Shown: in pieces, positions 35,952 through 56,306 of the stretch
Layout: every line of letters starts with the position of its first letter
Position numbering within the stretch: the first letter of the stretch is position 1
From: Nocardiopsis trehalosi NBRC 14201
GTDB taxonomy: Bacteria > Actinomycetota > Actinomycetes > Streptosporangiales > Streptosporangiaceae
DNA length: 61,722 nt
Direction: 5' to 3'
Assembly (NCBI RefSeq): GCF_001552555.1
Contig: NZ_BCRK01000012.1
Coordinates: 1 to 61,722, forward strand
Notes under the pieces: generated by a model
The model's database searches: none
What the model saw: the letters and a program-made list of their open reading frames with translations, nothing else
Told to the model about the DNA's origin: nothing
Program-made: the position numbers and the translations under genes

Positions 35952-36036
35952 CCGATCCTCCTGGGTCGGGGGGTGCCCCGTGCGGTGCGGCGGTCGGGGC
36001 GCTGGTGTGCCGGGAACGCGAGCGGTATCGTTCAGG

Positions 36037-36066: not shown

Positions 36067-36103
36067 CCGACGCGTACGTCCTGCACAGCGAGGAGCCCCC
36101 ACT

Positions 36104-38305: not shown

Positions 38306-38311
38306 CGCGGG

Positions 38312-38349
38312 CGCGGCCGGGGCGCGCCGCGCGGCGCGCCCCGGCCGCG
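38312..38349. terminator. 38-bp perfect palindromic bidirectional terminator
   Basis: Two 19-base arms, the left starting CGCGGCCGGGGCGCGCC, are perfect reverse complements with no loop bases. It lies exactly in the 52-base space between convergent alpha-galactosidase and OppF-type genes. Confidence 0.8.
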
Positions 38350-38357
38350 GTCGCCGG

Positions 38358-40182: not shown

Positions 40183-41156
40183 GCGGCGGCGCTCCTCGCT
40201 CGGCGGCGCGCGGCGCGGCGCGGGGCCGCGACGCGCAGCCGCGGGTCGATGATCTCGTCGATGCTGAAGTTGATGAGGGACAGGCCGCAGCCGAACAGCG
40301 CGATCAGCAGGCCCGGCGGGACGAACCACCACCACGCGCCCTGCTGCAGCGCGAACCCGTTCTGCGCGTAGAACAGCATGGTGCCGAGGGTGGCGGAGTC
40401 GGAGGCGCCCAGCCCGAGGAAGGACAGCCCGGCCTCGGTCAGGATGGCGGCGATGACGGCGTAGACGAACTGCGACGCCAGCACCGGCAGCAGGTTGGGC
40501 AGGATCTCCACGCCCACGATGCGCCACGGCCGCTCCCCGGCCACGCGCGCCGCGGCGACGTAGTCGCGGGTGCGCAGCGACAGGGTCTGGGCGCGCAGCA
40601 CGCGGGCCGACGCCGCCCACCCGGTGGCGGCGAGGACGAGGGCGATCGTCCACCAGCCCCGCTGCTCGGCGGGCACGATGGCGGACACCACGATCACCAG
40701 CGGCAGGCTCGGGATGACCAGCATGACGTTGGCGGCCAGCGACGACAGCTCGTCGACCACCCCGCCCAGGTAGCCGCCGAGGATGCCGAACAGCCCCGAC
40801 AGCAGGGTGGCGAGGACCCCCACGAGCAGGCCGATGCGGACCGACCCCCGGGTGGCGTGGGCGAGCTGGGCGAACACGTCCTGGCCGGTCTCGGTGGTAC
40901 CCAGCAGGTAGCCGCCGCCGGGCGGGGTCAGGCCGCGGTCGTCGATCGCGCTCGGGTCGCCGACCAGGAACGGGCCGATCACCCCGAACAGGGTGACGGC
41001 GGCCACCAGGAGCAGGCCGACGCCCAGGCGCGGGGTCCAGCGCGGCAGCAGCGACCGGGCGCCGCCGCGCGGGCGGCCGCCGGGGGCGGCGGCCGGGGCG
41101 TCCTCGGGGACGGGGACGTCGCCGGTCGCCTGGGTGAGCGGGCTGAGGTTGGTCAT
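40179..41156 (-). CDS. Opp/Dpp-type ABC permease (OppC/DppC-like)
   Basis: Inner-membrane permease of the importer, 325 residues, about six helices (first at RLGVGLLLVAAVTLFGVIG). The ATPase-contacting EAA loop is YVAAARVAGERPWRIVGVEI. The helix-rich end with FLGLGASDSATLGTML is typical of DppC. ATG at 41156, 14 bases after the DppB-like gene. The C-terminal Arg-rich tail (RRAARRRARSAAA) is cytoplasmic. Confidence 0.92.
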   Translation of the reverse strand: MTNLSPLTQATGDVPVPEDAPAAAPGGRPRGGARSLLPRWTPRLGVGLLLVAAVTLFGVIGPFLVGDPSAIDDRGLTPPGGGYLLGTTETGQDVFAQLAHATRGSVRIGLLVGVLATLLSGLFGILGGYLGGVVDELSSLAANVMLVIPSLPLVIVVSAIVPAEQRGWWTIALVLAATGWAASARVLRAQTLSLRTRDYVAAARVAGERPWRIVGVEILPNLLPVLASQFVYAVIAAILTEAGLSFLGLGASDSATLGTMLFYAQNGFALQQGAWWWFVPPGLLIALFGCGLSLINFSIDEIIDPRLRVAAPRRAARRRARSAAA

Positions 41157-41170
41157 GGGTGCGGCTCCTC

Positions 41171-42169
41171 TCAGTCGCGCGCCCGCGTGCGGGGGTCGAT
41201 GACGCCGTACAGCAGGTCGACGAGCAGGTTGGCGCCCAGCACCGCGACCGTGATGACCAGGAAGATCCCCTGCATCAGGGCGTAGTCGTTGTACTGGACC
41301 GCCATCAGCAGCCGGGACCCGATGCCGGGGTAGGAGAACACCTGCTCGGTGACGATGGAGCCGGAGACCACGAACCCCAGCGACACCGCGAACCCGGCGA
41401 AGGACGGCAGCACCGCGTTGCGCGCCGCGTAGCGCACCATGACGCGCGAGCCGCGCAGGCCCTTGGCCTCGGCGGTGGTGACGTGGTCGTCGGAGACCGT
41501 CGACACCATCATGTTGCGCATCCCCAGCAGCCACCCGCCGACCGAGGAGAGCACGATCGTCAGCGCCGGCAGGGTCCCGTGGTAGACCGCCGACACGATG
41601 AAGTCGGCGTTCCAGCCGGGGATGAGCGCCACGTCGTAGCCGCCCAGCAGCGGGAACCAGCGCAGGGTGGAGGCCAGCAGCGCCGCGAGCAGCAGGGCCA
41701 GCCAGAAGTAGGGCACCGCCGCCAGGGCGGTGGTGGCGGGCACGAGCGCGTCGACCCAGGTGCCGCGCCGCCAGCCGGCCAGCGCCCCCAGGCCCACGCC
41801 CAGGGCGAAGGAGATCACCGTCGACAGGCCCACCAGGACGACCGTCCACGGCAGGGACTGGGCGATGACCTCCGACACCGGTGTGGGGAACACGCTCACC
41901 GAGATCCCCAGGTCGCCGCGGGCGAGGTTGCCCAGGTAGGCGGTGTACTGGTTCCACAGCGGCTCGTCGGAGCCGGTGCCCAGCATGAGTTCGAAGGCGC
42001 GCCGGGTGGCCGGGTCGACGTTGCCGCCCCGCTGGGCCAGCCGCGCCATCAGGGTGTCCACCGGGTTGCCGGGCAGCAGCCGGGGGAGCAGGAAGTTCAG
42101 GGTCACCGCCGCCCACAGGGCGACCAGGTAGAACCCGAGCTTGCGGACGTAGTACCTCACCGCGCTCAC
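41171..42169 (-). CDS. Opp/Dpp-type ABC permease (OppB/DppB-like)
   Basis: The partner permease, 332 residues with six helices. N-terminus YYVRKLGFYLVALWAAVTLN, conserved LLPGNPVDTLMARL and EAA loop TTAEAKGLRGSRVMVRYA. The start is either the GTG at 42169, which overlaps the binding-protein stop as GTGA, or the GTG at 42160. I prefer the overlapping one. It follows the binding-protein gene directly. Confidence 0.92.
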   Translation of the reverse strand: MSAVRYYVRKLGFYLVALWAAVTLNFLLPRLLPGNPVDTLMARLAQRGGNVDPATRRAFELMLGTGSDEPLWNQYTAYLGNLARGDLGISVSVFPTPVSEVIAQSLPWTVVLVGLSTVISFALGVGLGALAGWRRGTWVDALVPATTALAAVPYFWLALLLAALLASTLRWFPLLGGYDVALIPGWNADFIVSAVYHGTLPALTIVLSSVGGWLLGMRNMMVSTVSDDHVTTAEAKGLRGSRVMVRYAARNAVLPSFAGFAVSLGFVVSGSIVTEQVFSYPGIGSRLLMAVQYNDYALMQGIFLVITVAVLGANLLVDLLYGVIDPRTRARD

Positions 42170-43857
42170 TCGCCGCCGGCGGGGGTCAGGTTGAGGTAGA
42201 TCTGCGACTGGTCGGGGCGGCCCCACACGGCCGGATAGGCGTAGGTGTCCTCCTCGGTGGGCCAGCCGGTGAACTTCTCGGTGTTGAACTCGCTGGTGGT
42301 CCCGCCGGTCAGCACCGGGATGTAGGGCATGTCCTCTTCGAGGGCGGTCTGGATGGTGTCGAAGTGCGGCTGCCGCGCCTCGGTGTCCTCCGGCGGGATG
42401 CCGCGCAGCGCCTCGATCGCGGCGTCCACCTCGGGGTCGCTGTACCGGGCGTAGTTGGGGTTGGCGGTCTCGCCGACGGGGGCGGTGGTGCCGGTGTCGA
42501 AGAAGTAGGAGTAGACGAAGAACGGCTCGGGCGAGGCCCCCTGGTGCAGCGAGTCGAAGAGCAGGTCGAACTCGCCCTGGGCGCGGGCGTCGCCCCACTC
42601 GTTGTAGGAGACCCCCTGCGCGGACAGGTCGATGCCGGCCTCGGCGAGCTGTTCCGAGAGGGTGTTGATGGCGGTCACGTAGTCGGTCCAGCCGGAGGGC
42701 ACGGTGACGGTCAGGGCCAGCCGCTCGCCGTCCTTGGCGAACACGCCGTCGTCGCCGCGCTCCCACCCGGCGCCCTCCAGTTCGCGCACCGCCGCGTCGA
42801 CGTCGGGCTCCATGGGGGCGGTGGCGTGCTCCAGCTCGTCGGAGATGATGGCGGCGTCCCGCTCGGGCAGGGCGAACCCGGGGGAGATCCCGCTCGCGGT
42901 GCCCTCGAAGGCGAGCGCGTCGAGCTGGTCGCGGTCCATGGCGTGGTAGATCGCGCGGCGGACGGCGGGGTCGGTCTGCGGGCCGTCGCAGCCGAGGTCG
43001 GTGCTGGAGCAGGTGAACAGGGCCATCTGGTTCATCGGGACGGTGATGGCGCTGTACCCCGGGTGGTTCTCCTCGAAGTTCTCCAGGTCGGGCACCGGGC
43101 CGGTGACCCAGTCGACCTGGCCGGCGCCGAGCGCGTCCACCCCGGACTGGTTGCCCGACAGGGCGATGTAGCGGATGTTCTTCAGCGCCGGCTCCCCGCC
43201 GTAGTAGTCGGGGTTGGCGGTGAGCGTGAACGCCTGCGGCTGGAAGTCCTGGAGCCGGTAGGGGCCGGTGCCGACGGGCTCGTCGACGCGGTCGGTGACG
43301 GGGTCCTCGATGCCGGACCAGATGTGCTCGGGCACGATCCAGGTCTTGCCGAGGAGCTGGGGGGCGTCCATGTAGGCCGGCTCGTCGAAGGTGACCCGCA
43401 CGGTGGTGGCGTCGACCGCCTCGGCCTCGCCCGCGTAGCCGCCCTGGTTGATCGCGGGGGTGGCGGCGACCAGGTCGAAGGTGTAGGCGACGTCCTCGGC
43501 GGTGAAGGGTTCGCCGTCGGTCCACACGGCGTCGTCGCGGACGGTGATGGTCAGCTCGGTGCCGTCGTCGTTCCAGGAGTAGTCGGTGCCGAGGCGGGGG
43601 GTGGGGTCGCCGGGCTCCACCAGGTTGTAGACGAACAGCGGCTCGAAGATCGTGCCGGGGCCCTCGTTGGTGGTGGGCGCGTAGGGGTTGAAGTTGCGCT
43701 GGTAGTCACCGTTCTGCCCGGTGTAGGCGATGAGGGTGTCGGCGGCCGAGCCGCCCCCGCCCCCGCCGCCCCCGCTGCATCCCGCCGCGGCGAGGACGAC
43801 CGCGACCGCTCCGACCAGCGCGACCCGCGCGCGTCGGTGGACTCCGTGCGACGCCAT
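42166..43857 (-). CDS. Opp/Dpp-type oligosaccharide-binding lipoprotein (family 5 SBP)
   Basis: Extracellular ligand-binding protein of the importer, 563 residues. Signal peptide with lipobox VVLAAAGCSGG, so Cys27 is lipidated, followed by a poly-Gly linker. SBP family 5 features: IFEPLFVYNLVEPGDPTPRL, YSWNDDGTELTITVRDDAVW and EPVGTGPYRLQDF. Family 5 proteins bind peptides or, in Thermotoga and some actinobacteria, manno- and cello-oligosaccharides. Mannosidase/galactosidase neighbours and the shared promoter box point to beta-manno-oligosaccharides (inference). ATG at 43857 with GAAGGAA upstream. First gene of the operon. Confidence 0.92.
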   Translation of the reverse strand: MASHGVHRRARVALVGAVAVVLAAAGCSGGGGGGGGSAADTLIAYTGQNGDYQRNFNPYAPTTNEGPGTIFEPLFVYNLVEPGDPTPRLGTDYSWNDDGTELTITVRDDAVWTDGEPFTAEDVAYTFDLVAATPAINQGGYAGEAEAVDATTVRVTFDEPAYMDAPQLLGKTWIVPEHIWSGIEDPVTDRVDEPVGTGPYRLQDFQPQAFTLTANPDYYGGEPALKNIRYIALSGNQSGVDALGAGQVDWVTGPVPDLENFEENHPGYSAITVPMNQMALFTCSSTDLGCDGPQTDPAVRRAIYHAMDRDQLDALAFEGTASGISPGFALPERDAAIISDELEHATAPMEPDVDAAVRELEGAGWERGDDGVFAKDGERLALTVTVPSGWTDYVTAINTLSEQLAEAGIDLSAQGVSYNEWGDARAQGEFDLLFDSLHQGASPEPFFVYSYFFDTGTTAPVGETANPNYARYSDPEVDAAIEALRGIPPEDTEARQPHFDTIQTALEEDMPYIPVLTGGTTSEFNTEKFTGWPTEEDTYAYPAVWGRPDQSQIYLNLTPAGGE

Positions 43858-43930
43858 CTGCGTTCCTTCCCGTGAGGAGCGGCGCCGGCACCGCCGTCGC
43901 CGGGCCCGGACGCGCCGCTCGGGTGAAGGC

Positions 43931-43960
43931 ATTGTTAAGCCGCTGAACAAAGAAAGTCAA
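43931..43960 (-). promoter_or_regulatory. Promoter-operator of the importer operon (shared 30-bp box)
   Basis: On the minus strand, -35 TTGACT (43960-43955) and -10 TAACAA (43937-43932) have 17-bp spacing. A near-perfect 19-bp palindrome, TTGTTAAGC-C-GCTGAACAA (43932-43950, one mismatch), covers spacer and -10. This is the style of ROK-family operators, and a ROK gene lies divergently 236 bases away. It matches the mannosidase promoter at 25 of 30 bases. Confidence 0.78.
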
Positions 43961-44195
43961 GATATCGTGTGACGTGGATTACCGGGCCGCGCGGTGCGGC
44001 AGGGGCGGACGGGACCGGCGCCGCGGCCGCCGGGCGCACCGCCCCCGGTGCCGCGCACCCGGGGGCGCACCGGGGCCGCCGCCCGCCGACCTCCGGTCCG
44101 GGCGGCCGGAGGGTAACCTCGTGACGTCGACCCGCCGGGCGGCCCGTCCGGGCACCGCCCGACGGGCGCGGGACGGCGAGCGGCGGAGGGGGCGC

Positions 44196-45479
44196 ATGAA
44201 CGGGGCGGGGCGGTCCATACCCCACGCGAGCAGCCGGGCGGCGGTGCTGGACGTCATCCGCGCCGCGGGCACCATCAGCCGGGTCGGCATCATCGAGGCC
44301 ACCGGGTTCACCGGGGCCACCATCTCCACCGTCGTCCGCGGGCTCATCGACGACGGCCTGGTCCTGGAGACCGGCCGCGCCGAGTCCACCGGCGGCAAGC
44401 CGCGCGTCCTCCTCCAGCTCAACCGGCCGGCCCGCTTCGCCGTCGGGGTCCACCTCGACCACTCCGGGCTGACCTACGTCCTCACCGACCTCTCCGGCGC
44501 CGTCGTCGCCCGCATGACCCGCGCCGGCGTCGGCGCCGAGGACCCGCCGCTCGTGGTCGGCCGGATGGCGCGCGAGGTCGACGCGCTCGTCGACGGCGCC
44601 GGGGTCGACCGCTCCCGCGTCCTGGGCCTCGGCCTGGTCGCCCCCGGCCCGCTCACCGCCGCCTCCGGCATGCGGCTCACCCCGCCGCCGATGCGCCACT
44701 GGGAGGACTACCCGCTGGACCGGGCGCTGCGCGAGGCCACCGGGATGCCCGTCGTCCTCGACAACGACGCCACCGCCGCCGCCCTGGGCGAGTACTGGTC
44801 CGGCTCCATCCAGGACACCTCGACGTTCGCCGCCCTCTACATGTGCACCGGCATCGGGTCGGGGCTCCTCGTCAACGGCCTCACCTACCACGGGGCCAGC
44901 GGCAACGCCGGCGAGATCGGGCACATCTGCGTCGACGCCGACGGCCCCGAGTGCTGGTGCGGGGCGCGCGGCTGCACCGAGGTCCTGGCCGGGCCCGCGT
45001 CGGTCGTGGCCGCCGCCCGCGCCGACCCCGCTCTCGCCCGCAGCGCCGGGCTGACCGGCGAACGCAAGCGCGTCCGGCCCACCGTCGCCGCCGAGTTCGC
45101 GTCGGTGGCGCGCGCCGCCCGCCGGGGCGACCCGGCCGCGCGCGCCCTGCTGGAGCGCTCCGCCCGCTACCTCGCGGTGGCCGCCCGCACCCTGGTCACC
45201 ATCATGGACCTGGAGCTGCTCGTGCTCACCGGCGCCAGCCTGGCGATCGCCGGGTCCACCTACCTGCCCGTGGTGCGCGCCGAACTCGACCGCGCGTTCT
45301 TCGCCCGCGGCACCCACGCGGTGGACGTGCGGCTGTCGAAGTCGGCCGCCACCGCCCCCGCGATCGGCGCCGCCACCATGGTCCTGCAGACCGAACTCGT
45401 CCCGCTCAACCAGGGGCTGCGGGTGCCCGCCAACCTCGCCGCCTCCGACCCCCACCCCGCCCGCGCCGGCGGCGCCTGA
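44196..45479 (+). CDS. ROK-family transcriptional regulator (likely mannan/galactomannan regulon)
   Basis: A 427-residue repressor-type ROK protein. N-terminal winged helix (~10-70; RAAVLDVIRAAGTISRVG, ATISTVVRGLIDDGLV), then the sugar-kinase-fold sensor (~80-400). Signature and zinc site: GEIGHICVDADGPECWCGAR followed by GCTEVL. VLDNDATAAALGEYW is the phosphoryl-site region. ATG at 44196 with GGCGGAGGGG upstream; the longer upstream frame is shadow. Divergent from the importer whose promoter carries a ROK-like palindrome. That it binds both shared boxes is inference. Confidence 0.9.
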   Translation: MNGAGRSIPHASSRAAVLDVIRAAGTISRVGIIEATGFTGATISTVVRGLIDDGLVLETGRAESTGGKPRVLLQLNRPARFAVGVHLDHSGLTYVLTDLSGAVVARMTRAGVGAEDPPLVVGRMAREVDALVDGAGVDRSRVLGLGLVAPGPLTAASGMRLTPPPMRHWEDYPLDRALREATGMPVVLDNDATAAALGEYWSGSIQDTSTFAALYMCTGIGSGLLVNGLTYHGASGNAGEIGHICVDADGPECWCGARGCTEVLAGPASVVAAARADPALARSAGLTGERKRVRPTVAAEFASVARAARRGDPAARALLERSARYLAVAARTLVTIMDLELLVLTGASLAIAGSTYLPVVRAELDRAFFARGTHAVDVRLSKSAATAPAIGAATMVLQTELVPLNQGLRVPANLAASDPHPARAGGA

Positions 45480-45512: not shown

Positions 45513-47441
45513 TCACGCCCCGGGCGGCCCCGCCACCGCGGTCAGCAGCGCCAGCGGGGTGGCCGTCGCCCACGCCTGCGGCGAGCAGGCGTGCGGGTAG
45601 GGCACCGGTTCGGGGTGGTCGGCGCGGTCGTAGCCGGCCAGCACCTCCGGCAGCCGGAACCCGTTGCGGGCCGCCGCCGCCACCAGGCCCTCGGTCAGCC
45701 GCCCCGCCTCGGCGGCCAGCCCGTAGCGGGCCAGCCCCAGCGCGATCACGGCGTTGTCGTGCGGCCAGATACCGCCCCGGTGGTAGCTCAACGGGTGGTA
45801 CGGCCGCTGGCCCGCGGCGAGCGTGCGCACCCCCCACCCCGAGAAGAAGTCCGGCCGCAGCAGCCGCCGGCCGATCGCCGCCCCCCACGCCGGGTCGGCC
45901 AGCCCCGAGAACAGCAGGTGCCCGGCGTTGGAGGCCAGCGCGTCGACCCGCCGCCCCGCACCGTCCAGCGCGATCGCCGGGAACCCGCCCGCCTCGGGCA
46001 TCGGGAAGTCGCGGTGCACGTCCGCCCGCAGCCGGTCGGCGACCGCGGCCAGCCGGCCCGCGTACCCGGGGTCGCCCCACACCCGCTCGGCCAGGTCGGC
46101 GGTGCGGCGCAGCGCGTCGTAGGCGTAGCCCTGCGCCTCGCACACCGCGATCGGACCCTCGGCCTGGCGGCCGTCGGCCCAGCAGACCGCCCCCGCCGAG
46201 TCCTTCCAGCACTGGTTGACCAGGCCGGCGGGGTCGGGGGTGTACACCAGGTAGCCGGACGCGACCCCGCCGTCGCCCAGCATCCAGTCGACCGCCGCGC
46301 GGGCCGCCCCCTCCAGCTCGCGGGCCGGCCCGGTGTCGCCCGCCGCCTCGGTGTAGGCGTGCAGCAGCACCAGGAACAGCGGGGTGGAGTCGACCGCGCC
46401 GTAATAGCGGCCGTACGGCACCTGGCCGAAGTGCGCCAGTTCGCCCCGCCGCACCTCGTGCACGATCTTGCCCGGCCGCTCCACCCGCGCCGGGTCGTCG
46501 GCGCGCCCCTGCACCGCCGCCAGCGCGCGCAGGCTCGCCGCCGCCGGGCCCGCCCGGTACGGCAGCGCGAACAGCGAGGTCAGCAGGGCGTCGCGGCCGA
46601 ACAGGGTGAGGAACCAGGGCACCCCCGCCCCCGGGACGAGCAGCGGCGCGCCGTCGGGGCCGGGCACGGGCACCCGCAGCGCCGCCAGGTCGGCGAGCCC
46701 CTGGTCGCAGGCGCGCAGCAGGTCGGGGTCGCCGCCCCGGTCGCGCGGGTGCGGCGCGGCGCCGGTGAACTCCGCGGCCTCGGCCGCGTCGGCCGCCGCG
46801 ACGCGCGCCGGCGGCACCGGCGCGGGGACGGGGCCGGCCGCCCCGTCCGGCCCGGTGCGCACCCGCGCGTTGAGGGTGACGGCGGCCTCGCCGTGGGCGG
46901 GCAGCCGCAGCTCCCACTCGGCGGTGCACGCGTCGGACCCGGCGCGCACGGTGTCGGGCGGCGGGTCGGCGGTGACCGTGGTCGACGCCGCCCAGGCGCC
47001 CCGCCGGTAGCCGAACACCAGCCCGCCGGGCTCGGCCGACCGCTCGTGCCGAGCGTCGGGCTTGGGGTAGCGGCGGCCGTCGGAGCGGAGCTCGAACTGG
47101 TCGGCGAAGTCGGCGTCGGCCAGGTAGCGCAGCCGCACGGTGATCGGCTCGGCCGTGTGGTTGACCACCCGCACCCGCTCCGCCAGCCCGAACGCGTCGA
47201 CCGCCTGCTCGCGCAGCACCAGGTAGGGCGGTGGGGCGTCGCGGGTGCCCGGCGGCACCAGCACCCCCGGCGCCAGCGGGGTGAGCGCCGCGCCGTCGGC
47301 CTTGAGCCGCCACAGGCTCAGGTGGCGGGCGTCGTGGGCGAACAGCCCGTCGGGCGCGGTGCCGCGGGTGCCGTGGACGTCGCCGGTGGCGTCCACGGCG
47401 GCGAACACCCCCCGCCGGACCAGCAGCCGCCGGTCGGTCAT
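45513..47441 (-). CDS. Glycogen-debranching-enzyme-like glycoside hydrolase
   Basis: A 642-residue protein. The N-terminal beta domain (~1-215) is the glycogen-debranching N-terminal type (TAPDGLFAHDARHLSLWRL, LRYLADADFADQFELR). The C-terminal (alpha/alpha)6 barrel (~240-640) has PWFLTLFGRDALLTSLFALP, GGIWPHDNAVIALGLARYG and ACSPQAWATATPLALL. Relatives are called amylo-alpha-1,6-glucosidase-like, but the substrate of these short bacterial members is often unknown. ATG at 47441 with GGGAGGTGTG; it shares one base with the upstream gene's stop (TGATG). Last gene of its operon. No signal peptide. Confidence 0.85.
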   Translation of the reverse strand: MTDRRLLVRRGVFAAVDATGDVHGTRGTAPDGLFAHDARHLSLWRLKADGAALTPLAPGVLVPPGTRDAPPPYLVLREQAVDAFGLAERVRVVNHTAEPITVRLRYLADADFADQFELRSDGRRYPKPDARHERSAEPGGLVFGYRRGAWAASTTVTADPPPDTVRAGSDACTAEWELRLPAHGEAAVTLNARVRTGPDGAAGPVPAPVPPARVAAADAAEAAEFTGAAPHPRDRGGDPDLLRACDQGLADLAALRVPVPGPDGAPLLVPGAGVPWFLTLFGRDALLTSLFALPYRAGPAAASLRALAAVQGRADDPARVERPGKIVHEVRRGELAHFGQVPYGRYYGAVDSTPLFLVLLHAYTEAAGDTGPARELEGAARAAVDWMLGDGGVASGYLVYTPDPAGLVNQCWKDSAGAVCWADGRQAEGPIAVCEAQGYAYDALRRTADLAERVWGDPGYAGRLAAVADRLRADVHRDFPMPEAGGFPAIALDGAGRRVDALASNAGHLLFSGLADPAWGAAIGRRLLRPDFFSGWGVRTLAAGQRPYHPLSYHRGGIWPHDNAVIALGLARYGLAAEAGRLTEGLVAAAARNGFRLPEVLAGYDRADHPEPVPYPHACSPQAWATATPLALLTAVAGPPGA

Positions 47442-48775
47442 CACACCTCCCGGCTCAGCAGGTCGAGGACGGTCGCCGCGGTCCAGCTGAAGTCGCGGGT
47501 GCCGCGCCCCTCGCCGCTGTAGGGGTCGACGTACTCGGCGAACCCGGTCCGCGCGGCCGCCGCCAGCATGGACGCCCGCAGCGCCGCCGCCTGCGCGGGC
47601 GCGCCGTGCCGCAGCAGGCCCAGGTGGACCAGCCACGACATGTTGAACCACCCCGGGCCGCGCCAGTAGCGGCCCGGCTCGAACGCGGGCCCGGTCAGGT
47701 CGTAACTCGGTACCAGGTGCACGCCGCCCACCCGGAACCGCTCGCCGAGCGCCGTGCGCAGCAGGTCGGCCGCCACCGGCAGCCCGGGGACGGCCAGCGG
47801 CACCAGCCCGGCCACCCCGTACTCGCGGATGGGGGCGCCGCCGATGAGGTCCCGGCACAGGAACAGGCCGGCGCCGGGGTCCCACAGGGCGCCCACCAGC
47901 GCCTCGGTGAGGGCCGCCGCGCGCTCGCGGTGCGGCGCGGGGTCGCCCCCCAGCTCGGCGGTGATGTCGGCCAGGGCGTGCTCCGACAGCACCAGCAGCG
48001 CGTTGAACGACGGGTCCTCCACGGCGAACCCGAACGGGGTGGCGCGGTCGTCGTAGCCGTGGTCGCGGTAGTCGGCGGCCAGCCGGACGTAGCGGCCGTA
48101 GTCGAGGTCGGTGGGCCGGTCGGCGACGTCGGCGTGGTCGAGGTCGCGCCGCCGGAAGCTGCCCGCAGCGGCCGGCTCCACCCGGGCCAGCGGGGCGTCC
48201 CACGCCGGGCTGTTGTCCATGCCCGACTCCCACGGGTGCACGACCGCGGCCAGCCCCCGCCCACCCAGGTCGCGGCGGTCGGCCAGGTAGCGGTGCCAGG
48301 CCGCGAGCCCCGGCCGCACCCGCTCCAGGAACCCGCGCCGCCGCGACGCCACCGGGTCGGCCCGGTGGGTCTCCCACGCCGCCAGGGCGTGCACCGGCGG
48401 CTGCACGATGCCCGACGTGGGCACACCGGGCGGCGCCGAACCCGCCGACGCCGACCGCCAGAAGTCGGGGCCGGGGAAGTACGCGCCGGGCGGCGTGGCC
48501 GGGTGGAACGCGATGTGCGGCAGCCGGCCGTCGGCCCACTGCGCGCCCAGCATCGACTCCAGCTCCCGCTGCGCCCGGTACGGCGAGATGTGCCGCAGGC
48601 CGAGCATGATGAACGCGGAGTCCCAGCTCCACTGGTGCGGGTAGAGCGTGCGCGAGGGCAGCGTGGAGCTGCCCGTCCAGTTGCCGAGCAGCACCCGGAC
48701 GGCGGCCCGGCGCAGGTCGGCGTCCGTAGCGGCGGGGGCGGCCGGGGCGTCCGCCGCCACTGGGGCGGCGGTCAC
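47441..48775 (-). CDS. MGH1/GH63-like (alpha/alpha)6 glycoside hydrolase
   Basis: A 444-residue cytoplasmic hydrolase of the MGH1-type (GH63-related) group. Barrel motifs: RTLYPHQWSWDSAFIMLGLR (acidic Asp after the Trp), HPWESGMDNSPAWD, then YDLTGPAFEPGRYWRGPGWF and YVDPYSGEGRGTRDFSWTAA. Such enzymes act on alpha-glucosides or alpha-mannosides such as mannosylglycerate; the substrate here is unknown. The GTG at 48775 overlaps the isomerase stop (GTGA). Sits between the isomerase and debranching-like genes. Confidence 0.85.
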   Translation of the reverse strand: MTAAPVAADAPAAPAATDADLRRAAVRVLLGNWTGSSTLPSRTLYPHQWSWDSAFIMLGLRHISPYRAQRELESMLGAQWADGRLPHIAFHPATPPGAYFPGPDFWRSASAGSAPPGVPTSGIVQPPVHALAAWETHRADPVASRRRGFLERVRPGLAAWHRYLADRRDLGGRGLAAVVHPWESGMDNSPAWDAPLARVEPAAAGSFRRRDLDHADVADRPTDLDYGRYVRLAADYRDHGYDDRATPFGFAVEDPSFNALLVLSEHALADITAELGGDPAPHRERAAALTEALVGALWDPGAGLFLCRDLIGGAPIREYGVAGLVPLAVPGLPVAADLLRTALGERFRVGGVHLVPSYDLTGPAFEPGRYWRGPGWFNMSWLVHLGLLRHGAPAQAAALRASMLAAAARTGFAEYVDPYSGEGRGTRDFSWTAATVLDLLSREV

Positions 48776-49584
48776 GCGGCGACCTTGCGCACGAACGGCG
48801 GCACGCCGCGCAGCGCGGAGTCGGGGTCGCCGGACAGCCGGCACTCCACGGCCGTCCACCCGCTGTAGCCGATGGCGTCGAGCGCGGCGAAGAACACCGG
48901 CCAGTCGATGTGCCCGGCCCCCGGCTGGAACCGGTTGGAGTCGCTGACCTGCACGTGGCCGATCAGCGGGCCGGCGGCCAGCACCGCCGCCGCGGGGTCG
49001 GCCTCCTCGATGTTCATGTGGTAGCTGTCGATGCCGATGCGCACCGCCGGCGACCCGGCGGCGCGGATGAGGTCGGCGGCCTGGTCGATCCGGTTGACCA
49101 TGTGGTCCTCGTAGCGGTTGAGCGGCTCCAGGAACAGGGTGGTGCCCTCGCGCTCGGCGTGGGCGCCCAGCTCGGCCAGGCCCGCCAGCAGCACCTCGCG
49201 GTCCTCGGCCTCGCTGCGCGGCGGCTCGAACGGCGGCAGCCGCCGGGAGAACATGCCGTAGGAGGCGGGCGTCTGCGCGCCCACCCCGCCGATCTCGGCG
49301 ATGACCGACAGCTGGGACTTCATCTGCTCGACGGCGTCGCGGCGCAGGTCGGGGTCGAACGCGCCGAAGAAGTGCGGCATGTCGACGCACACGGTCGGCA
49401 GCACGACCCCGTCGCGCAGGGCGCGGCGCAGCTCCGGCAGCCGGTCGCGGAGCGCGAAGGCGCTCCTGCCGCGCAGTTCGATGCCGTCGTAGCCGGCGGC
49501 GCGCGCGTACTCCCACTTGTCCTGCAGGGTGGTGCCGGGCAGCAGCTGCTCCTGGCAGGCCAGTCGCGGTGTGGTGGCGGTCAT
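48772..49584 (-). CDS. Xylose-isomerase-like TIM-barrel sugar isomerase/epimerase
   Basis: A 270-residue AP-endonuclease-2/xylose-isomerase-like TIM barrel. Metal-site residues are in order: Glu in TLFLEPLNRYEDH, Asp/His in GIDSYHMNIEE, His in LIGHVQVSDSNR, Glu near the end in WTAVECRL. The family includes hydroxypyruvate isomerase, D-tagatose 3-epimerase and 3-keto-glycoside-processing enzymes. ATG at 49584. Six bases after the dehydrogenase gene. Context favours isomerising or cleaving an oxidised sugar (inference). Confidence 0.88.
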   Translation of the reverse strand: MTATTPRLACQEQLLPGTTLQDKWEYARAAGYDGIELRGRSAFALRDRLPELRRALRDGVVLPTVCVDMPHFFGAFDPDLRRDAVEQMKSQLSVIAEIGGVGAQTPASYGMFSRRLPPFEPPRSEAEDREVLLAGLAELGAHAEREGTTLFLEPLNRYEDHMVNRIDQAADLIRAAGSPAVRIGIDSYHMNIEEADPAAAVLAAGPLIGHVQVSDSNRFQPGAGHIDWPVFFAALDAIGYSGWTAVECRLSGDPDSALRGVPPFVRKVAA

Positions 49585-49590
49585 CGGGGT

Positions 49591-50637
49591 TCAGAACTCC
49601 AAAACGATCTGCAGGGCGTCCTGCGGCCGCTCGTCGAGCAGCCGGTAGGCGGTGGTGGCGTCGGCGACCGGGATCTGGTGGCTGACGAGCGGCTTGACCT
49701 CGACCCGGCCGTCGGCGACCAGGTCGAGGAAGGTCTGCTGGAGCCGGTCGACGCTCCACCGCCCGGACAGGCGCGGCGGGACGCCGCCGATCTGCGAGGA
49801 GACCAGCTCGATGCGGTTGTGGTGGAACTCCTCGCCCAGCCGCAGGCCGTCGCCGCCGCCCTGGTAGAACCCGGCGGCGACCACGCGGCCGCCCACGGTG
49901 GTGGCGCGCACCGCCTCGTGCAGGGCGGCGTAGGCGCCGCTCAGCTCGACGGCGGTGTCGGCGCCGGTGCCCGAGGTGAGGTCGCGGACGCGTTCGGCGA
50001 CGCGTTCGGTGCGGGCGTTGAGCACGGCCGACGCGCCGAACCGCTCGGCGGCGGCCAGCCGCGCCTCCAGGGCGTCGACGGCGAGCACCCGGCCCCCGCT
50101 GAGCGCGGTGAGGCGGGTGGCGAGCAGGCCGATGACGCCCTGGCCGAACACCGCCACGGTCTCGCCGAGGTTGACCTCGGCCGCCAGCACGGCGTTGAGG
50201 GCGATGGCGCCCACCCGGGCGAACGCGCCGGCCAGCGGGTCGAGGCCGACGGGCAGCCGGTGGCCGACCATGCGCGCCGCCGGGACCACGCCCTCGCTGC
50301 GGTGGCCCCAGATGCCCCACACGAGGTCGCCGACCCGGGGCACCCCGGGCAGGTCGGCGCAGTCGGGGGCGGCCTCCACGACCTCGCCGACCTCGGAGTA
50401 GCCCCAGCCCACGACGGGGTACTCCAGCCCGGCGGTGGACTCGTCGAACAGGCGCGACGCCGGGTTCCACGCCCGGGTCAGGTAGGGGTTGGTGCCGCGG
50501 TAGGCCGTCAGCTCGGTCCCCGCGGAGATGCCGGAGAAGCGGGTGCGCACTCTGAGGTGGCCCGGTGGCAGCGGCGCCCGCTGGTAGCCGGCGACCTCGA
50601 CCTGGCGCGGTCCGGTGAACTGGACGACTGTCTCCAA
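49591..50637 (-). CDS. Medium-chain (zinc-type) dehydrogenase with altered zinc site
   Basis: A 348-residue MDR-superfamily oxidoreductase. Cofactor site VAVFGQGVIGLLATRL (GxGxxG); N-terminal GroES-like domain with GHLRVRTRFSGISAGTEL. The usual catalytic-zinc GHE motif is replaced by VVGWGYSEVGEVV, so it may use no catalytic zinc, like the BchC-type branch of the family. The only plausible start is the TTG at 50637 (METVVQFTGPRQ), with GGGAG 6 bases upstream. First gene of a four-gene operon with isomerase and two glycoside hydrolases. Confidence 0.85.
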   Translation of the reverse strand: METVVQFTGPRQVEVAGYQRAPLPPGHLRVRTRFSGISAGTELTAYRGTNPYLTRAWNPASRLFDESTAGLEYPVVGWGYSEVGEVVEAAPDCADLPGVPRVGDLVWGIWGHRSEGVVPAARMVGHRLPVGLDPLAGAFARVGAIALNAVLAAEVNLGETVAVFGQGVIGLLATRLTALSGGRVLAVDALEARLAAAERFGASAVLNARTERVAERVRDLTSGTGADTAVELSGAYAALHEAVRATTVGGRVVAAGFYQGGGDGLRLGEEFHHNRIELVSSQIGGVPPRLSGRWSVDRLQQTFLDLVADGRVEVKPLVSHQIPVADATTAYRLLDERPQDALQIVLEF

Positions 50638-50714
50638 CAGGGGCTCCCGTGGACGGGCCGCCGCCGCGGCGCCGGAGGCGGAGTGCGGCGGGCATAACAG
50701 TAAAGGTTTCGTCG

Positions 50715-50742
50715 AAGCTACCTCTATCTTAGGCCTTGTCAA
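50715..50742 (-). promoter_or_regulatory. Candidate promoter of the dehydrogenase-glycosidase operon
   Basis: On the minus strand -35 TTGACA (50742-50737) and -10 TAGCTT (50720-50715) are 16 bp apart. It lies in an AT-rich island between divergent operons and implies a ~70-base leader. It does not contain the 30-bp box of the mannan locus. Confidence 0.55.
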
Positions 50743-50863
50743 TACGCAAAAGTAGTGTTCTCATGATGCGCACCGAAGATGGAGGGGACGGATCGCGGGA
50801 CCGGCCGGACACCCGGACACCCGCGCCACCGCCCCACCGAATCCCACGTGCGAGAGGCAGACG

Positions 50864-52252
50864 ATGCGAAGGTCCCGCCGCCTGACGGCGCTCGCCGCGT
50901 CGGCCGCCGCCGGCCTGCTGCTCAGCTCCTGCGCGGCGCGGCCGGCCGAGGACGACGGCTCGACGATCACCGTGTGGAGCCTGGAGAACATCACCGAGAG
51001 GGCGGCCGCCACCCAGCGGATCGTCGACCGGTTCACCGCAGATACCGGCATCGAGGTGGAACTCGTCGGCGTGGACGAGAACCAGCTCGGCCAGCTCATC
51101 ATGTCCGCCGCGGCCGCCGGCACCCTGCCCGACGTCATCGGGGCCGTGCCGCTGTCGTCGGTGCGCCTCATGGCCGCCAACGACCTCCTCGACACCGAGG
51201 CCGCCACCCGGATCGTCGACGACCTCGACCCCGCGACCTTCGACCCCCAGGCCCTGGAGCTGACCACCGAGGGCGACCGGCGGCTCGCCGTGCCCTCCGA
51301 CGCCTGGGCGCAGCTCCTCGTCTACCGCGCCGACCTGTTCGCCGACGCCGGCCTGGCCCCGCCCGACACCTACGCCGCCATCGAGGAGGCCGCCCGCACC
51401 CTCGACGGCCCCGACATGGACGGCATCTCCCTGGCCACCGACCCCGCCGACGCGTTCACCCAGCAGAGCTTCGAATACCTCGCCCTCGCCAACGGCTGCG
51501 AACTCGTGGACGGCGCCGGCGAGGTCCTGCTCGACAGCCCCGAATGCCGGCGCGCCTTCGCGTTCTACGGCGGCCTGGTCACCGACCACTCCGCCGAGGG
51601 CACCCAGACCGTCGACTCCACCCGCGCCACCTACTTCGCCGGCCGCTCCGCCATGATCGTCTGGTCCTCCTTCCTGCTCGACGAGCTCGCCGGACTCCGC
51701 GACGACGCCCTGCCGAGCTGCCCCGAATGCCGCGACGACCCCCGCTGGCTGGCCGACAACAGCGGCGTCGTCACCGCCGTCCAGGGCCCCGACGGCGACG
51801 CCCCCGCCCAGTTCGGCGAGATCACCTCGTGGGCGGTCACCACCACCGCCCACACGGGCTCCGCGCGGACCTTCGTCGAGCACATGCTGGACGAGGGCTA
51901 CGCCGACTGGTTCGGCATGGCCCCCGAGGGCAAGTTCCCCGCCCGCTCCGGCACCCCCGACGACCCCGACCGGTTCCAGCGCGCCTGGGACGCCGCCGAC
52001 GCCGGCGTGGACACCCGCGCCCCGCTCGCCGACGTCTACCCGCCCGAGGTCCTCGACCAGCAGCGCAACGGCATCGGCAGCATGCAGCGGTGGGGGATCA
52101 CCCAGGGGCAGGGCCGGCTCGTCGGCGCCACCATGGGCGAACTCCCCGTCCCGCAGGCCGTCAGCGCCATCGCCGGCGGCCAACTCGACCCGGCCGAGGC
52201 CGCCGAGCAGGCCGACGCCGACGTCACCGCCATCCAGACGTCGCTCCAGTAG
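50864..52252 (+). CDS. Sugar ABC transporter substrate-binding lipoprotein (family 1)
   Basis: A 462-residue extracytoplasmic binding protein of the CUT1/MalE type. Signal peptide with lipobox GLLLSSCAA (lipidated Cys23). SBP features: TITVWSLENITERAA, LPDVIGAVPLSSVRLM, PSDAWAQLLVYRADLFADAG and YFAGRSAMIVWSSFLLDEL. ATG at 50864 after GAGAGGCAG. It leads a rightward operon of two permeases, a ROK regulator and a dehydrogenase. The ligand is probably an oligosaccharide handled by the divergent glycosidases. Confidence 0.92.
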   Translation: MRRSRRLTALAASAAAGLLLSSCAARPAEDDGSTITVWSLENITERAAATQRIVDRFTADTGIEVELVGVDENQLGQLIMSAAAAGTLPDVIGAVPLSSVRLMAANDLLDTEAATRIVDDLDPATFDPQALELTTEGDRRLAVPSDAWAQLLVYRADLFADAGLAPPDTYAAIEEAARTLDGPDMDGISLATDPADAFTQQSFEYLALANGCELVDGAGEVLLDSPECRRAFAFYGGLVTDHSAEGTQTVDSTRATYFAGRSAMIVWSSFLLDELAGLRDDALPSCPECRDDPRWLADNSGVVTAVQGPDGDAPAQFGEITSWAVTTTAHTGSARTFVEHMLDEGYADWFGMAPEGKFPARSGTPDDPDRFQRAWDAADAGVDTRAPLADVYPPEVLDQQRNGIGSMQRWGITQGQGRLVGATMGELPVPQAVSAIAGGQLDPAEAAEQADADVTAIQTSLQ

Positions 52253-52337
52253 CCGTCCACCCAGCCGTCCACCGCAGCCGTCCACCGCGGTGCGGGGCCG
52301 CCGCCCCGCCGCCCGACCGTCCATCCGAGGTGGCCAC

Positions 52338-53351
52338 ATGACCCGACCGTCCCCCGGGACCTCCGCCCGCCCCGCCGGCCCGCCCGGCGCCGCCCGCGGC
52401 CGGCCCGCCCGCCGCACCACCGCCGCCGCCCGGGAGAACCGGGCCGGCCTGGCGTTCGTCTCGCCGACCCTGATCGTGGTCCTCGCGGTCGTCGTGCTGC
52501 CGATCCTGTGGACGGTGCTGCTCGCCTTCCAGCGCACCCGCCTGGTCGACATCCAGACCACCGGCCTGTTCGGGAACTGGACGCTGCGCAACTTCGAGCT
52601 CGTCTTCACCTCGCCCGGCTTCTGGTCCTCGCTGTGGACCACCCTGCTGTACACGGTCGGGTCCACCGCCGGGTCGATCGCCCTCGGCCTCGTCGCCGCG
52701 CTGGCGCTGCGCCGCCCGTTCCGCGGCCGGGGCCTGCTGCGCGGGTCGATGCTGGTGCCCTACGTGGCGCCGGTCGTCGCCGTCACCTTCGTCTGGGAGG
52801 TCATGCTCAGCCCCCAGTACGGCATCGTCAACGAGTGGGGCACCGAACTCCTCGGCTGGGACGCCCCCATCGCGTTCCTCAGCCAGCGCAACGCCGACGT
52901 CAGCGTCCTCGGGGTGCAGCTGCCCGTCCCGGTCGCCCTGCTGACCGTCATCGTGTTCGAGATCTGGCGGTACTTCCCGTTCGCGTTCCTGTTCCTGCTC
53001 GCCCGGCTCCAGGCCGTGCCCAACGGGCTGGAGGAGGCCGCCACCATCGACGGCGCCGGCCTGTGGCAGACCTTCCGGCACATCCTGCTGCCCCAGCTCA
53101 TGCCGGTGATCTCGCTGCTGGCTGTGCTCCGGCTGATCATGACCTTCAACAAGTTCGACGACGTCTACCTGCTCACGGGCGGCGGCGCCGGCACCGACGT
53201 GGTCGCGGTCCGCGTGTACGAGTTCCTCACCGCGCGCTTCGACGTCGGCGCCGCCGCCGCGCAGGCGCTGGTGCTGGCCGCGGTCCTCACCGTGCTGCTC
53301 GGCGTGTACTTCGCGTTCTTCGCCCGCCGGACCCAGGAGGAGGCACAGTGA
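52338..53351 (+). CDS. Sugar ABC permease (MalF-like)
   Basis: A 337-residue permease with a disordered Pro/Ala-rich N-terminus (~1-35) and six helices. First helix FVSPTLIVVLAVVVLPILW; EAA loop EEAATIDGAGLWQTFRHILL. ATG at 52338 behind CGAGGTGG. Its stop overlaps the next gene's GTG (GTGA). Confidence 0.93.
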   Translation: MTRPSPGTSARPAGPPGAARGRPARRTTAAARENRAGLAFVSPTLIVVLAVVVLPILWTVLLAFQRTRLVDIQTTGLFGNWTLRNFELVFTSPGFWSSLWTTLLYTVGSTAGSIALGLVAALALRRPFRGRGLLRGSMLVPYVAPVVAVTFVWEVMLSPQYGIVNEWGTELLGWDAPIAFLSQRNADVSVLGVQLPVPVALLTVIVFEIWRYFPFAFLFLLARLQAVPNGLEEAATIDGAGLWQTFRHILLPQLMPVISLLAVLRLIMTFNKFDDVYLLTGGGAGTDVVAVRVYEFLTARFDVGAAAAQALVLAAVLTVLLGVYFAFFARRTQEEAQ

Positions 53352-54214
53352 CCCGCGCCGGATTCGAGAAGCGGGTGTTCGGGGCCCTGCGCTGGGTGGT
53401 GATCGCCTTCCTCGCGGTGATCACCCTCTTCCCCTTCTACTACATGGCCGTGCTGTCGGTGAAGCCGATCGACCAGCTGCTGCTCGACCCCGGGCGCATC
53501 TGGGTGTCGGCGTCGGAGTTCACCCTCGACACCTACCGCACCGTGCTGGCCTCCACCGATGACGGCGGGCAGGGGTTCCTCCGGCTGCTCGCCAACTCCG
53601 CCGTGGTGTCGCTGGGCACGGTCGCGCTCACCCTGCTGGCGTCGATCCCCGGCGCCTACGCGGTCAGCCGGCTGAGGTTCTTCGGCGGCCGCCAGGTCAG
53701 CGCCCTGTTCCTGGCCGTGTACCTGTTCCCCGCCACGCTGCTGGCCGTCCCGCTGTTCGTCATCTTCGCCCGCATCGGGCTCCAGGGCAGCCTCGTGGGA
53801 CTCGCCGTCGTCTACATCGCGCAGACCGTGCCCGTGTCGATCTACATGCTGCGCAACTACTTCGCGACCATTCCGAAGAGCATCGAGGAGGCCGCGGCGC
53901 TCGATGGCTGCTCACGGCCCGCGATCGTGCGTAAGATCGTTCTGCCGCTCGCCGCGCCGTCGCTGATGGCCACCGGACTCTACGTCTTCATGATCGCCTG
54001 GAACGAGTTCCTGTTCGCACTGCTCTTCCTGGCCGCCGACCCGAGCCTGTGGACCGTCTCGCTCGGCCTGCAGCAGCTCGCCAACGGCATCGAGGTGCCC
54101 AAGACCGTGCTCATGGCCGGATCGGTCGTGCTCACCGTCCCGGTCGTCGCGCTGTTCTACGCGGCCGAGCGCATGCTGACCGAGGGGCTCACCAGCGGGG
54201 CCGACAAGAGCTGA
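53348..54214 (+). CDS. Sugar ABC permease (MalG-like)
   Basis: A 288-residue partner permease. EAA loop EEAAALDGCSRPAIVRKIVL; helices from WVVIAFLAVITLFPFYYM onward. GTG start overlaps the MalF-like stop with GGAGGAGG upstream. No ATPase gene follows. As in other actinobacterial CUT1 systems, a shared ATPase such as MsiK elsewhere in the genome is expected (family knowledge). Confidence 0.93.
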   Translation: MTRAGFEKRVFGALRWVVIAFLAVITLFPFYYMAVLSVKPIDQLLLDPGRIWVSASEFTLDTYRTVLASTDDGGQGFLRLLANSAVVSLGTVALTLLASIPGAYAVSRLRFFGGRQVSALFLAVYLFPATLLAVPLFVIFARIGLQGSLVGLAVVYIAQTVPVSIYMLRNYFATIPKSIEEAAALDGCSRPAIVRKIVLPLAAPSLMATGLYVFMIAWNEFLFALLFLAADPSLWTVSLGLQQLANGIEVPKTVLMAGSVVLTVPVVALFYAAERMLTEGLTSGADKS

Positions 54215-54255
54215 CCGCGCCGTCGGGCGCCGCACCACACGCGAGGAGGGAGACG

Positions 54256-55428
54256 ATGGCCACCGCACCCACGAGCGCCGGGAGCATGCTGCAGCTCGTC
54301 CGCAGCGGCCAGGCGAACACGCGGCGCGAACTCCAGGCGCTCACCGGCCTGTCGCGCTCCACGGTGGCGCACCGGCTCGACCTGCTGCTCGACGTGGGCT
54401 GGCTGGAGGAGTCCGGTGTCGACTCCTCCTCCGGCGGCCGCCCGCCCACCCGGCTCCGCTTCAACGAGGGCCACGCCGTGGTCCTCGCCGCCAGCCTCGA
54501 CACCACCCGCGCCCGCGCCGCCGTCCTCGACCTCGGCGGGCGCCCCCTCGCCGAGCACAGCGGCGACCTGCACGTCTCCGACGGCCCCGAACCCGTCCTC
54601 GACACCCTCGCCGGCTGGTTCACCGACCTGCTGGAGCGGGCCGGGCGCCGCGCCGACGAGGTCTGCGGCATCGGGGTGGCCGTCCCCGGGCCGGTCGAGT
54701 TCGAGACCGGCCGCGTCGTCCGGCCGCCCATCATGCCCGGCTGGGACGGCTACCCCATCCCCGACCACCTCCGCAAGACGTTCGACGCGCCCGTGCTCGT
54801 CGACAACGACGCCAACATGATGGCCCTCGGCGAACACGCCGCGGGCCACCCCGACTGCCCCGCGTTCGTCCTGGTCAAGGTCTCCACCGGCATCGGCGCC
54901 GGCGTCATCGTCTCCGGCGGCGTCTACCGCGGCATCGACGGCGGCGCCGGCGACATCGGCCACATCCGGCTGCACGACCGCGACGACGCCCTGTGCCAGT
55001 GCGGCTCCCGCGGCTGCCTGGCCGCCGTCGCCAGCGGCCGCGCCCTCGCCGCCGAACTCACCCGCCTCGGCGTCCCCACCGACTCCGGGTCCGGGGTCCG
55101 CGACCACCTCCGCGCCGACCTCCCCGAGGCCGTCCGGCTCGCCCGCGAGGCCGGGCGCCGCGTCGGCGAGGTCCTGACCACGGTCGTGTGCGTCCTCAAC
55201 CCCGGCGTGCTCATGGTCTCCGGCGACCTCGCCGAGACCCACTTCGTGACCGGGGTGCGCGAGGTCCTGTACCAGCGCGCCCTGGCCCGGGCCACCCGCA
55301 ACCTGCAGGTGGTCACCGGGCGGCTCGGCGACCGCGCCGGGCTGCACGGCGTCGGCCGCCTCGTGGTCGACCACCTGTACGCGCCCGCCCAGGCGGACGC
55401 CCGTCTCGCGGAAGGCACCGCACCATGA
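54256..55428 (+). CDS. ROK-family transcriptional regulator 2
   Basis: A 390-residue ROK repressor. Winged helix at ~8-65 (LVRSGQANTRRELQALTGL, RSTVAHRLDLLLDVGWL), then the ROK sensor with GAGDIGHIRLHDRDD and the zinc/signature segment CQCGSRGCLAAVASG. Phosphate-site region VLVDNDANMMALGEHA. ATG at 54256 after GAGGAGGGAGACG, 41 bases behind the permease. It probably represses its own operon and perhaps the divergent glycosidase operon; no clear palindrome was found there. Confidence 0.9.
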   Translation: MATAPTSAGSMLQLVRSGQANTRRELQALTGLSRSTVAHRLDLLLDVGWLEESGVDSSSGGRPPTRLRFNEGHAVVLAASLDTTRARAAVLDLGGRPLAEHSGDLHVSDGPEPVLDTLAGWFTDLLERAGRRADEVCGIGVAVPGPVEFETGRVVRPPIMPGWDGYPIPDHLRKTFDAPVLVDNDANMMALGEHAAGHPDCPAFVLVKVSTGIGAGVIVSGGVYRGIDGGAGDIGHIRLHDRDDALCQCGSRGCLAAVASGRALAAELTRLGVPTDSGSGVRDHLRADLPEAVRLAREAGRRVGEVLTTVVCVLNPGVLMVSGDLAETHFVTGVREVLYQRALARATRNLQVVTGRLGDRAGLHGVGRLVVDHLYAPAQADARLAEGTAP

Positions 55429-56306
55429 GCACACCCGTCCGTGTCGGACTCGTCGGAGCCGGCCCCTGGGCGGCGGACATGCACGCCCCCATGCTGGCCG
55501 CCGGACCCGAGACCGAACTCAGCGCGGTATGGGCGCGGCGCCCGGAGGCCGCCGCCGCCCTGGCCGCGCGCCACGGCGCCACCGCCGCCGCCTCGCTCGA
55601 CGAGCTGTTCGACGCCTGCGAGGCCGTCGCCTTCGCCGTTCCGCCCGGCGTCCAGGCGCGGATCGCGCCGCGCGCCGCCGCCGCCGGGCGCGCCCTGCTG
55701 CTGGAGAAGCCGCTCGGATTCACCCTCGACGAGGCCCGCGCCGTGGCCGACGCCGTCGAGGAGGCCGGCGTGGTGTCGATGATGGTGCTCAGCAAGCGCT
55801 ACCACCCGGAGACCCGCGCGTTCCTGGAGCGCGCCTCCCGGATGAAGGTCACCGGCGCCCGCTCCTGCTTCCTGCACGGCGTCTTCCTCGGTGGGGACAT
55901 GGCCACGCCGTGGCGGTTGGAGTACGGCGCCCTGCTCGACCTCGGACCGCACCTGCTCGACCTGGTCGACGCGGCCGTCGGCCCCATCACCGGTATCCGC
56001 GCGACGGGCGACCCGCGCACCTGGATCGAACTCACCTGCGAGCACGAGAACGGCGCCGTCAGCCAGTCGTCGCTGTCGGGGGCGGTGCGGCTGCCCACCG
56101 GCCACACCTCCATCGAGCTGTACGGGCCCGAGGAGACCCTGGTGCTCGACGGCGACGCGATGGACCACGACCAGTGCTGGCCGGTGCTGCGCCGGGAGTT
56201 CGCCGCGGCCGTGCGCACCGGCACCCCGCCCGACCTCGACGCCCGCCGGGGCCTGCGCCTCCAGGAGCTGCTGGAACTCGCCGCCGCCGACGCCCACGCG
56301 TCCTGA
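55425..56306 (+). CDS. Gfo/Idh/MocA-family sugar oxidoreductase
   Basis: A 293-residue NAD(P)-dependent dehydrogenase. Rossmann motif VGLVGAGPWAADMH; catalytic Lys in LLLEKPLGFT; C-terminal catalytic segment LDLGPHLLDLVDAA. Family members oxidise sugar hydroxyls, for example at C2, C3 or C5. The ATG overlaps the ROK stop (ATGA). Together with the divergent isomerase and second dehydrogenase, it suggests oxidative sugar processing. Shorter than the ~340 residues of many members, with a compact C-terminal half. Confidence 0.9.
   Translation: MSTPVRVGLVGAGPWAADMHAPMLAAGPETELSAVWARRPEAAAALAARHGATAAASLDELFDACEAVAFAVPPGVQARIAPRAAAAGRALLLEKPLGFTLDEARAVADAVEEAGVVSMMVLSKRYHPETRAFLERASRMKVTGARSCFLHGVFLGGDMATPWRLEYGALLDLGPHLLDLVDAAVGPITGIRATGDPRTWIELTCEHENGAVSQSSLSGAVRLPTGHTSIELYGPEETLVLDGDAMDHDQCWPVLRREFAAAVRTGTPPDLDARRGLRLQELLELAAADAHAS

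Follow-up and report, generated by a model that had tools for sequence, protein, structure and literature searches.

What sugar is served by a locus that encodes an importer, a regulator, two glycosidases, two dehydrogenases, and an epimerase? We address this question for nine genes, A to I, at positions 45513–56306 of the window (the whole 61,722-nt stretch of DNA that was analysed). A domain search found all of the domains that the initial annotation had claimed, and its two divergent operons stand as well: A-B-C-D on the minus strand and E-F-G-H-I on the plus strand. The minus arm is predicted to encode an MDR dehydrogenase (A, 49591-50637, 348 amino acids with a TTG start; Pfam ADH_zinc_N), a YcjR-type TIM-barrel epimerase (B, 48772-49584, 270 amino acids; by alignment and a match to PDB 6wn6), an MGH1-like glycosidase of the glucosyl-/mannosylglycerate hydrolase type (C, 47441-48775, 444 amino acids; GH63, PF22422), and a hydrolase with GDE_N_bis and amylo-alpha-1,6-glucosidase-like domains (D, 45513-47441, 642 amino acids; PF14742). 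The plus arm is predicted to encode a CUT1-type solute-binding lipoprotein (E, 50864-52252; PF13416/PF01547), two CUT1 permeases identified by domain matches (F, 52338-53351, and G, 53348-54214, which match YcjO at 39% and YcjP at 37%, respectively), a ROK-family regulator (H, 54256-55428; PF00480 in the open reading frame that contains H), and a short Gfo/Idh/MocA oxidoreductase (I, 55425-56306, 293 amino acids; PF01408).

Four of the junctions are overlaps (GTGA at B/C and at F/G, TGATG at C/D, and ATGA at H/I), and A and B are just 6 nt apart. Tight coupling had been proposed for all of the genes, but this does not extend to E/F and G/H, which have spacers of 85 nt and 41 nt. There is no ATPase gene for the CUT1 importer within the nine-gene locus, so the importer probably depends on an ATPase that is shared and encoded elsewhere. 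A second glycoside locus adjoins this one (window positions 32602-45479) and includes a LacI-type regulator, a GH2 enzyme, a GH36 alpha-galactosidase, an oligopeptide-type ABC importer, and another ROK regulator.

Conservation of the gene set and its operator

Many genera share the gene order (Streptomyces, Streptosporangium, Micromonospora, Asanoa, and Curtobacterium are among those with the set), so the arrangement is not due to chance, and we rejected the possibility, raised with the initial annotation, that the genes are not conserved together elsewhere. In eight genomes of the same taxonomic order (loci L040-L047), the set is complete in seven, and in the eighth it is truncated where the contig ends. 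For counts, we used the 64 long loci (at least 19.5 kb) among 80 named loci that were retrieved through their similarity to A; the counts therefore refer to loci with A and not to genomes in general. In these 64 actinobacterial loci, A is present in 64, B in 62, C in 58, D in 35, H in 58, and I in 34. All nine genes are present in 31 of the 64, and most of the others have a core of A, B, C, the importer, and the ROK regulator. D and I co-occur in 34 of 35 loci and are never found together with a second MDR gene (A2). C is missing from some loci that have A and B.

Conversely, C-D and a ROK gene occur without A, B, I, or the importer in one other genus of the class, in six genomes. C and D can therefore function as a unit without oxidation, and we rejected the idea that oxidation is a general prerequisite for cleavage. 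In these stand-alone loci (L151, L152, L154, L156, L157, and L158), C-D is divergent from the ROK gene, and an operator of the type described below lies upstream of C. In G457, one of the six genomes, a separate contig carries both A and C. A different actinobacterial family (f19) has loci, L159 and L161, in which two C-type hydrolases flank an A-type MDR and a distant CUT1 permease pair. Plasmid-borne relatives of A from outside the actinobacteria were considered and set aside: the best matches, from rhizobia and haloarchaea, are just ~31-34%, and the haloarchaeal one that we inspected is in an unrelated setting.

The intergenic region between A and E contains a 27-bp palindrome, ACTTTTGCGTATTGACAAGGCCTAAGA (50727-50753, minus strand; consensus ACTTTTGCTTGTTGACAAGACATAAGT), which is a putative site for the ROK protein H. 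It overlaps the -35 element of a putative promoter for A-B-C-D (50715-50742, minus strand), which we read from the sequence as TTGACA at 50742-50737, 16 nt, and TAGCTT at 50720-50715. A position weight matrix built from 71 intergenic regions gives the operator in the window 38.8 bits (median 45; maximum for shuffled sequences, 4), and 67 of 70 related A/E intergenic regions score above 20 bits; because the matrix was built from the same sequences that it scores, these values are descriptive. The operator is single-copy in its own genome (control, 0), and a search of that whole genome found no other genes under the same operator within 3 mismatches. The conservation of this motif suggests that H binds the palindrome.

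Predicted functions of the enzymes

C resembles characterized glycosylglycerate hydrolases over its full length (38-44% identity), and its closest PDB entries are T. thermophilus MgH and M. hassiacum GgH (MhGgH). Using the catalytic and substrate-site residues of MhGgH (PMC6608630), we checked 19 positions in 69 C sequences, including the one from the window. Fifteen of the 19 positions are identical in 69/69, another three (His78, Phe89, and Trp436) are identical in 66-68, and only Gln433 differs. The residues that are kept in all 69 include the catalytic D182 and E419 as well as Y36, W40, Y88, R216, and Y375, which contact glycerate directly. This pattern argues strongly that C acts on a glycosylglycerate. 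C's characterized relatives hydrolyze ordinary glucosyl- or mannosylglycerate (PMC6608630).

A homolog of C is also found on a plasmid of Jannaschia sp. W003, in an operon (L174, 1718-9096) with a CUT1 importer, a D-lyxose/D-mannose isomerase, and a glycerate kinase. This operon looks like a mannosylglycerate utilization system. By analogy, its glycerate kinase supports glycerate as a product of C. The genome of the window has one PF02595 glycerate kinase, on contig C70.

The only solved protein that D matches is 7vma, the archaeal-type amylo-alpha-1,6-glucosidase of Thermococcus gammatolerans (profile match of 384 bits, 31% identity), and 7vma is also the top Foldseek match (E = 1.7e-36) of the predicted structure of D (pLDDT 89). 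By both the catalytic-domain profile and the predicted fold, D would belong with the amylo-alpha-1,6-glucosidases; it differs from 7vma in being bacterial and in sharing an operon with C. D is the only copy of PF14742 in the genome. C and D had been described as unrelated hydrolases. We rejected this, as the MGH1-like profile also matches D (43 bits, with a cutoff of 27) and the second-best structural match of D is a GH63 enzyme: the two appear to be distant relatives. The modeled fold hints, weakly, that D is specific for alpha-1,6-linked glucose. Mycobacterial methylglucose lipopolysaccharide has diglucosylglycerate, alpha-Glc-(1->6)-alpha-Glc-(1->2)-glycerate, at its reducing end (PMC4555173). 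Diglucosylglycerate would suit a C + D pair, and an amylo-1,6-glucosidase-like D fits it as the substrate. A literature search on 7VMA and glucosylglucosylglycerate found nothing useful.

For the redox and epimerase genes, the closest comparison is the ycj cluster of E. coli K-12, in which ycjQ is annotated as D-guloside 3-dehydrogenase, ycjR as 3-dehydro-D-guloside 4-epimerase, ycjS as D-glucoside 3-dehydrogenase, and ycjM as glucosylglycerate phosphorylase. YcjM is in the same cluster as YcjQ and YcjR (PMC11009771). When the genome of the window was searched with YcjQ, A was the best and only full-length match (121 bits versus 44 for the next; 28% identity, 349 amino acids, E = 4e-30). The absence of the GHE zinc motif from A, as initially annotated, is real. 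In an alignment to E. coli Tdh, the catalytic-zinc ligands (Cys and GHE) are absent from A and likewise from YcjQ, which explains this odd feature, and the structural-zinc lobe is also missing from A. The predicted structure of A is a confident and ordinary MDR fold (pLDDT 93). Similarly, the best match of YcjR in this genome is B (157 bits versus 58 for the next), and B and YcjR are each other's best match in both search directions. The best PDB match of B is 6wn6, "3-keto-D-glucoside 4-epimerase" (E = 4e-45), which leads by 60 bits, and residues E153, D186, H210, and E247 of B, the presumed metal ligands, are invariant in the alignment. These similarities suggest, with moderate confidence, that A and B act as YcjQ and YcjR do; at just 28% (A) and 35% (B) identity to characterized enzymes, they may differ from these in regiochemistry and direction.

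I carries the EKP and D-x3-H motifs in an alignment. It was only the ninth match when we searched its genome with YcjS (39 bits versus 74 for C53:11202), and the best matches are elsewhere in the genome, so we rejected I as the ortholog of YcjS and consider it to be another Gfo/Idh/MocA enzyme. I is a weak candidate for the second dehydrogenase of the pathway. Its best PDB match is 6a3f, which we take to be levoglucosan dehydrogenase. The best PDB match of E is YcjN (8vqk, E = 7e-26). No counterparts of YcjM, YcjT, or YcjU were found among the nine proteins, and the complete ycj pathway is not present in this locus. On another contig (G000:C53:5077-11795), the genome's second-best YcjR match and its best YcjS match lie less than 7 kb apart, which may be another keto-sugar locus.

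A linked GpgS quartet

The only GpgS above the cutoff in the same genome is on contig C4, where an A-like MDR and a Gfo/Idh gene lie opposite, and divergent from, GpgS and a GT4 transferase (G000:C4, L182:9326-13782; the likely start of GpgS is at L182:11588). The GpgS of this quartet scores 400 bits, as compared to the NCBIfam equivalog cutoff of 262, and it matches solved GpgS. It is thus like the GpgS of glucosylglycerate and methylglucose lipopolysaccharide synthesis, except that here it is paired with a GT4 and is divergent from an MDR-Gfo pair. In 27 loci from Nonomuraea, Sphaerisporangium, and their relatives (about 22 distinct genomes after removing five duplicates), the quartet of MDR2-Gfo2 and the divergent GpgS-GT4 directly adjoins H-G-F-E and the divergent A-B-C. 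A further 11 loci were retrieved through second-type MDRs or weaker matches: the quartet is complete in six; the MDR, Gfo, and GT4 are present without a match to GpgS in four; and one has neither. The quartet also recurs without A-B-C. MDR2 is just 33% identical to A, so the link is between related dehydrogenases and not orthologous ones. The recurrence of the quartet and its adjacency to A-B-C tie an MDR-Gfo pair to glucosylglycerate synthesis and to a neighboring glycosylglycerate hydrolase, and the quartet is probably a biosynthetic unit for a modified glucosylglycerate. We found no description of the quartet in the literature on GpgS and MocA, and we know of no account of GpgS-GT4 divergent from an MDR-Gfo pair. 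Neither this link nor the likely substrate class, glycosyl-D-glycerate, was part of the initial annotation.

A proposed pathway and its alternatives

We propose, with a probability of roughly 55%, that the locus, under ROK control, serves to import and break down a glycosyl-(1->2)-D-glycerate whose hexose is neither gluco nor manno and is first corrected via a 3-keto intermediate. The substrate might also be extended by an alpha-1,6-linked glucose. E-F-G would import the glycosylglycerate with an ATPase that is encoded elsewhere. A, given its similarity to YcjQ, would oxidize the hexose at C3; B would epimerize a carbon adjacent to the ketone (C4 if it acts as YcjR does, or else C2); and I might reduce the ketone, which is the weakest step. 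D, judging from its fold, would remove the outer alpha-1,6-glucose where it is present. C, as its residues support well, would hydrolyze the corrected glycosylglycerate to the hexose and D-glycerate, and the glycerate could then pass to the glycerate kinase on contig C70. H would repress both operons from the single palindromic operator, as the conserved motif suggests. Which way the redox steps run, and which hexose is involved, are weakly indicated. We favor this explanation because of the conserved residues of C, the matches of A and B to YcjQ and YcjR, the presence of YcjM in the ycj cluster, the adjacency to GpgS, the Jannaschia operon, the fit of D to diglucosylglycerate, and the operator. 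Counting against it are the poor match of I to YcjS, the low identity of A and B to characterized enzymes, the distance between MDR2 and A, the C-D-ROK units without A, B, and I, and the loci with A and B but not C. Also, a redox step would be superfluous for ordinary glucosyl- or mannosylglycerate, and we know of no glycosylglycerate with an epimerized hexose. More tentatively, it is possible that in actinobacteria GpgS-GT4 and MDR2-Gfo2 build a glucosylglycerate that is epimerized via a 3-keto intermediate, an undescribed compound, and that A-I import it, reverse the epimerization, and hydrolyze it.

The main rival is that C and D simply cleave scavenged glucosyl-, mannosyl-, or diglucosylglycerate, with A, B, and I acting later on the freed hexose or on an unrelated side substrate that enters through the same importer. 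This would account for the C-D-ROK units without redox genes and for the known substrates of C's relatives, and the Jannaschia operon pairs its importer and C homolog with only a sugar isomerase and a glycerate kinase. Yet A and B share an operon with C and are kept more often than D is (in 64 and 62 of the 64 loci, versus 58 for C and 35 for D, although these loci were chosen by A), and YcjQ and YcjR are annotated as acting on glycosides, so we consider plain scavenging to be rather unlikely. We think it improbable that cleavage is oxidative and eliminative, with A or I making a 3-keto-glycoside, B as a lyase of the levoglucosan/3-keto-glycoside type, and C and D as auxiliary enzymes. TIM-barrel proteins do serve such pathways, and the match of I to 6a3f is in keeping with one, but B's best solved relative, by 60 bits, is the epimerase YcjR, B is the only strong match of YcjR in the genome, and C seems equipped to cleave its substrate unaided. 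Least probable, and very much so, is a standard route for maltodextrin, isomaltose, or trehalose with unusual auxiliary enzymes: a CUT1 importer, a ROK regulator, an amylo-1,6-glucosidase-like D, and database records that label C homologs as "trehalase family" would all suit it, but the glycerate subsite of glucosylglycerate hydrolase is complete in C, and the genes are linked to GpgS. Overall, the initial annotation's idea of a locus for using an alpha-glycoside, in which two alpha-glycosidases accompany a keto-sugar module for redox and epimerization, is supported. The genes also stay together elsewhere, and nothing points to a standard maltodextrin or trehalose route.

Both the parts and the logic of the proposed glycosylglycerate pathway have precedents in E. 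coli ycj and in GgH. The ycjMNOPQRSTU cluster, for guloside-to-glucoside conversion, likewise combines CUT1 importer parts, a YcjQ-type MDR without zinc ligands, a YcjR-type epimerase, a Gfo/Idh/MocA dehydrogenase, and a glucosylglycerate-cleaving enzyme. In E. coli, however, there are phosphorylases (YcjM and YcjT) in place of the hydrolases C and D, and a LacI-type repressor (YcjW) in place of a ROK protein; and the actinobacterial locus is in two divergent operons, has no mutase, and has a Gfo gene that is not orthologous to ycjS. The mycobacterial GgH and the MgH of T. thermophilus and Rubrobacter (GH63) share their key residues with C, apart from Gln433 of MhGgH, whereas C is encoded alongside genes for an importer and a keto-epimerase. 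So the claim that the locus is undescribed does not hold for A, B, and, more loosely, the importer, which match the described ycjNOPQR, or for C, whose family is characterized, but it seems to hold for the combination. To our knowledge, no described system has hydrolases where E. coli has phosphorylases and also a ROK operator and a linked quartet with GpgS, and we found nothing on this combination in the literature that we searched, which covered few subscription papers.

YcjM and the family of C are not homologous but share a substrate. That two unrelated glycosylglycerate-cleaving enzymes are found with the same types of dehydrogenase and epimerase, and that GpgS is adjacent, suggests epimers of glucosylglycerate as the missing substrate. 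The ycj enzymes are annotated for gulosides, and a sugar screen of YcjN found no ligand (PMC11543891), which is the gap that such epimers could fill. Glucosylglycerate is an extracellular metabolite of Streptomyces caelestis, according to a title cited in PMC11205660. On the more tentative reading, in which the compound is both made and consumed, an epimer of glucosylglycerate would be the natural substrate of the orphan ycj pathway of E. coli. The locus may also lead to a new osmolyte or extracellular metabolite of soil bacteria that are widespread.
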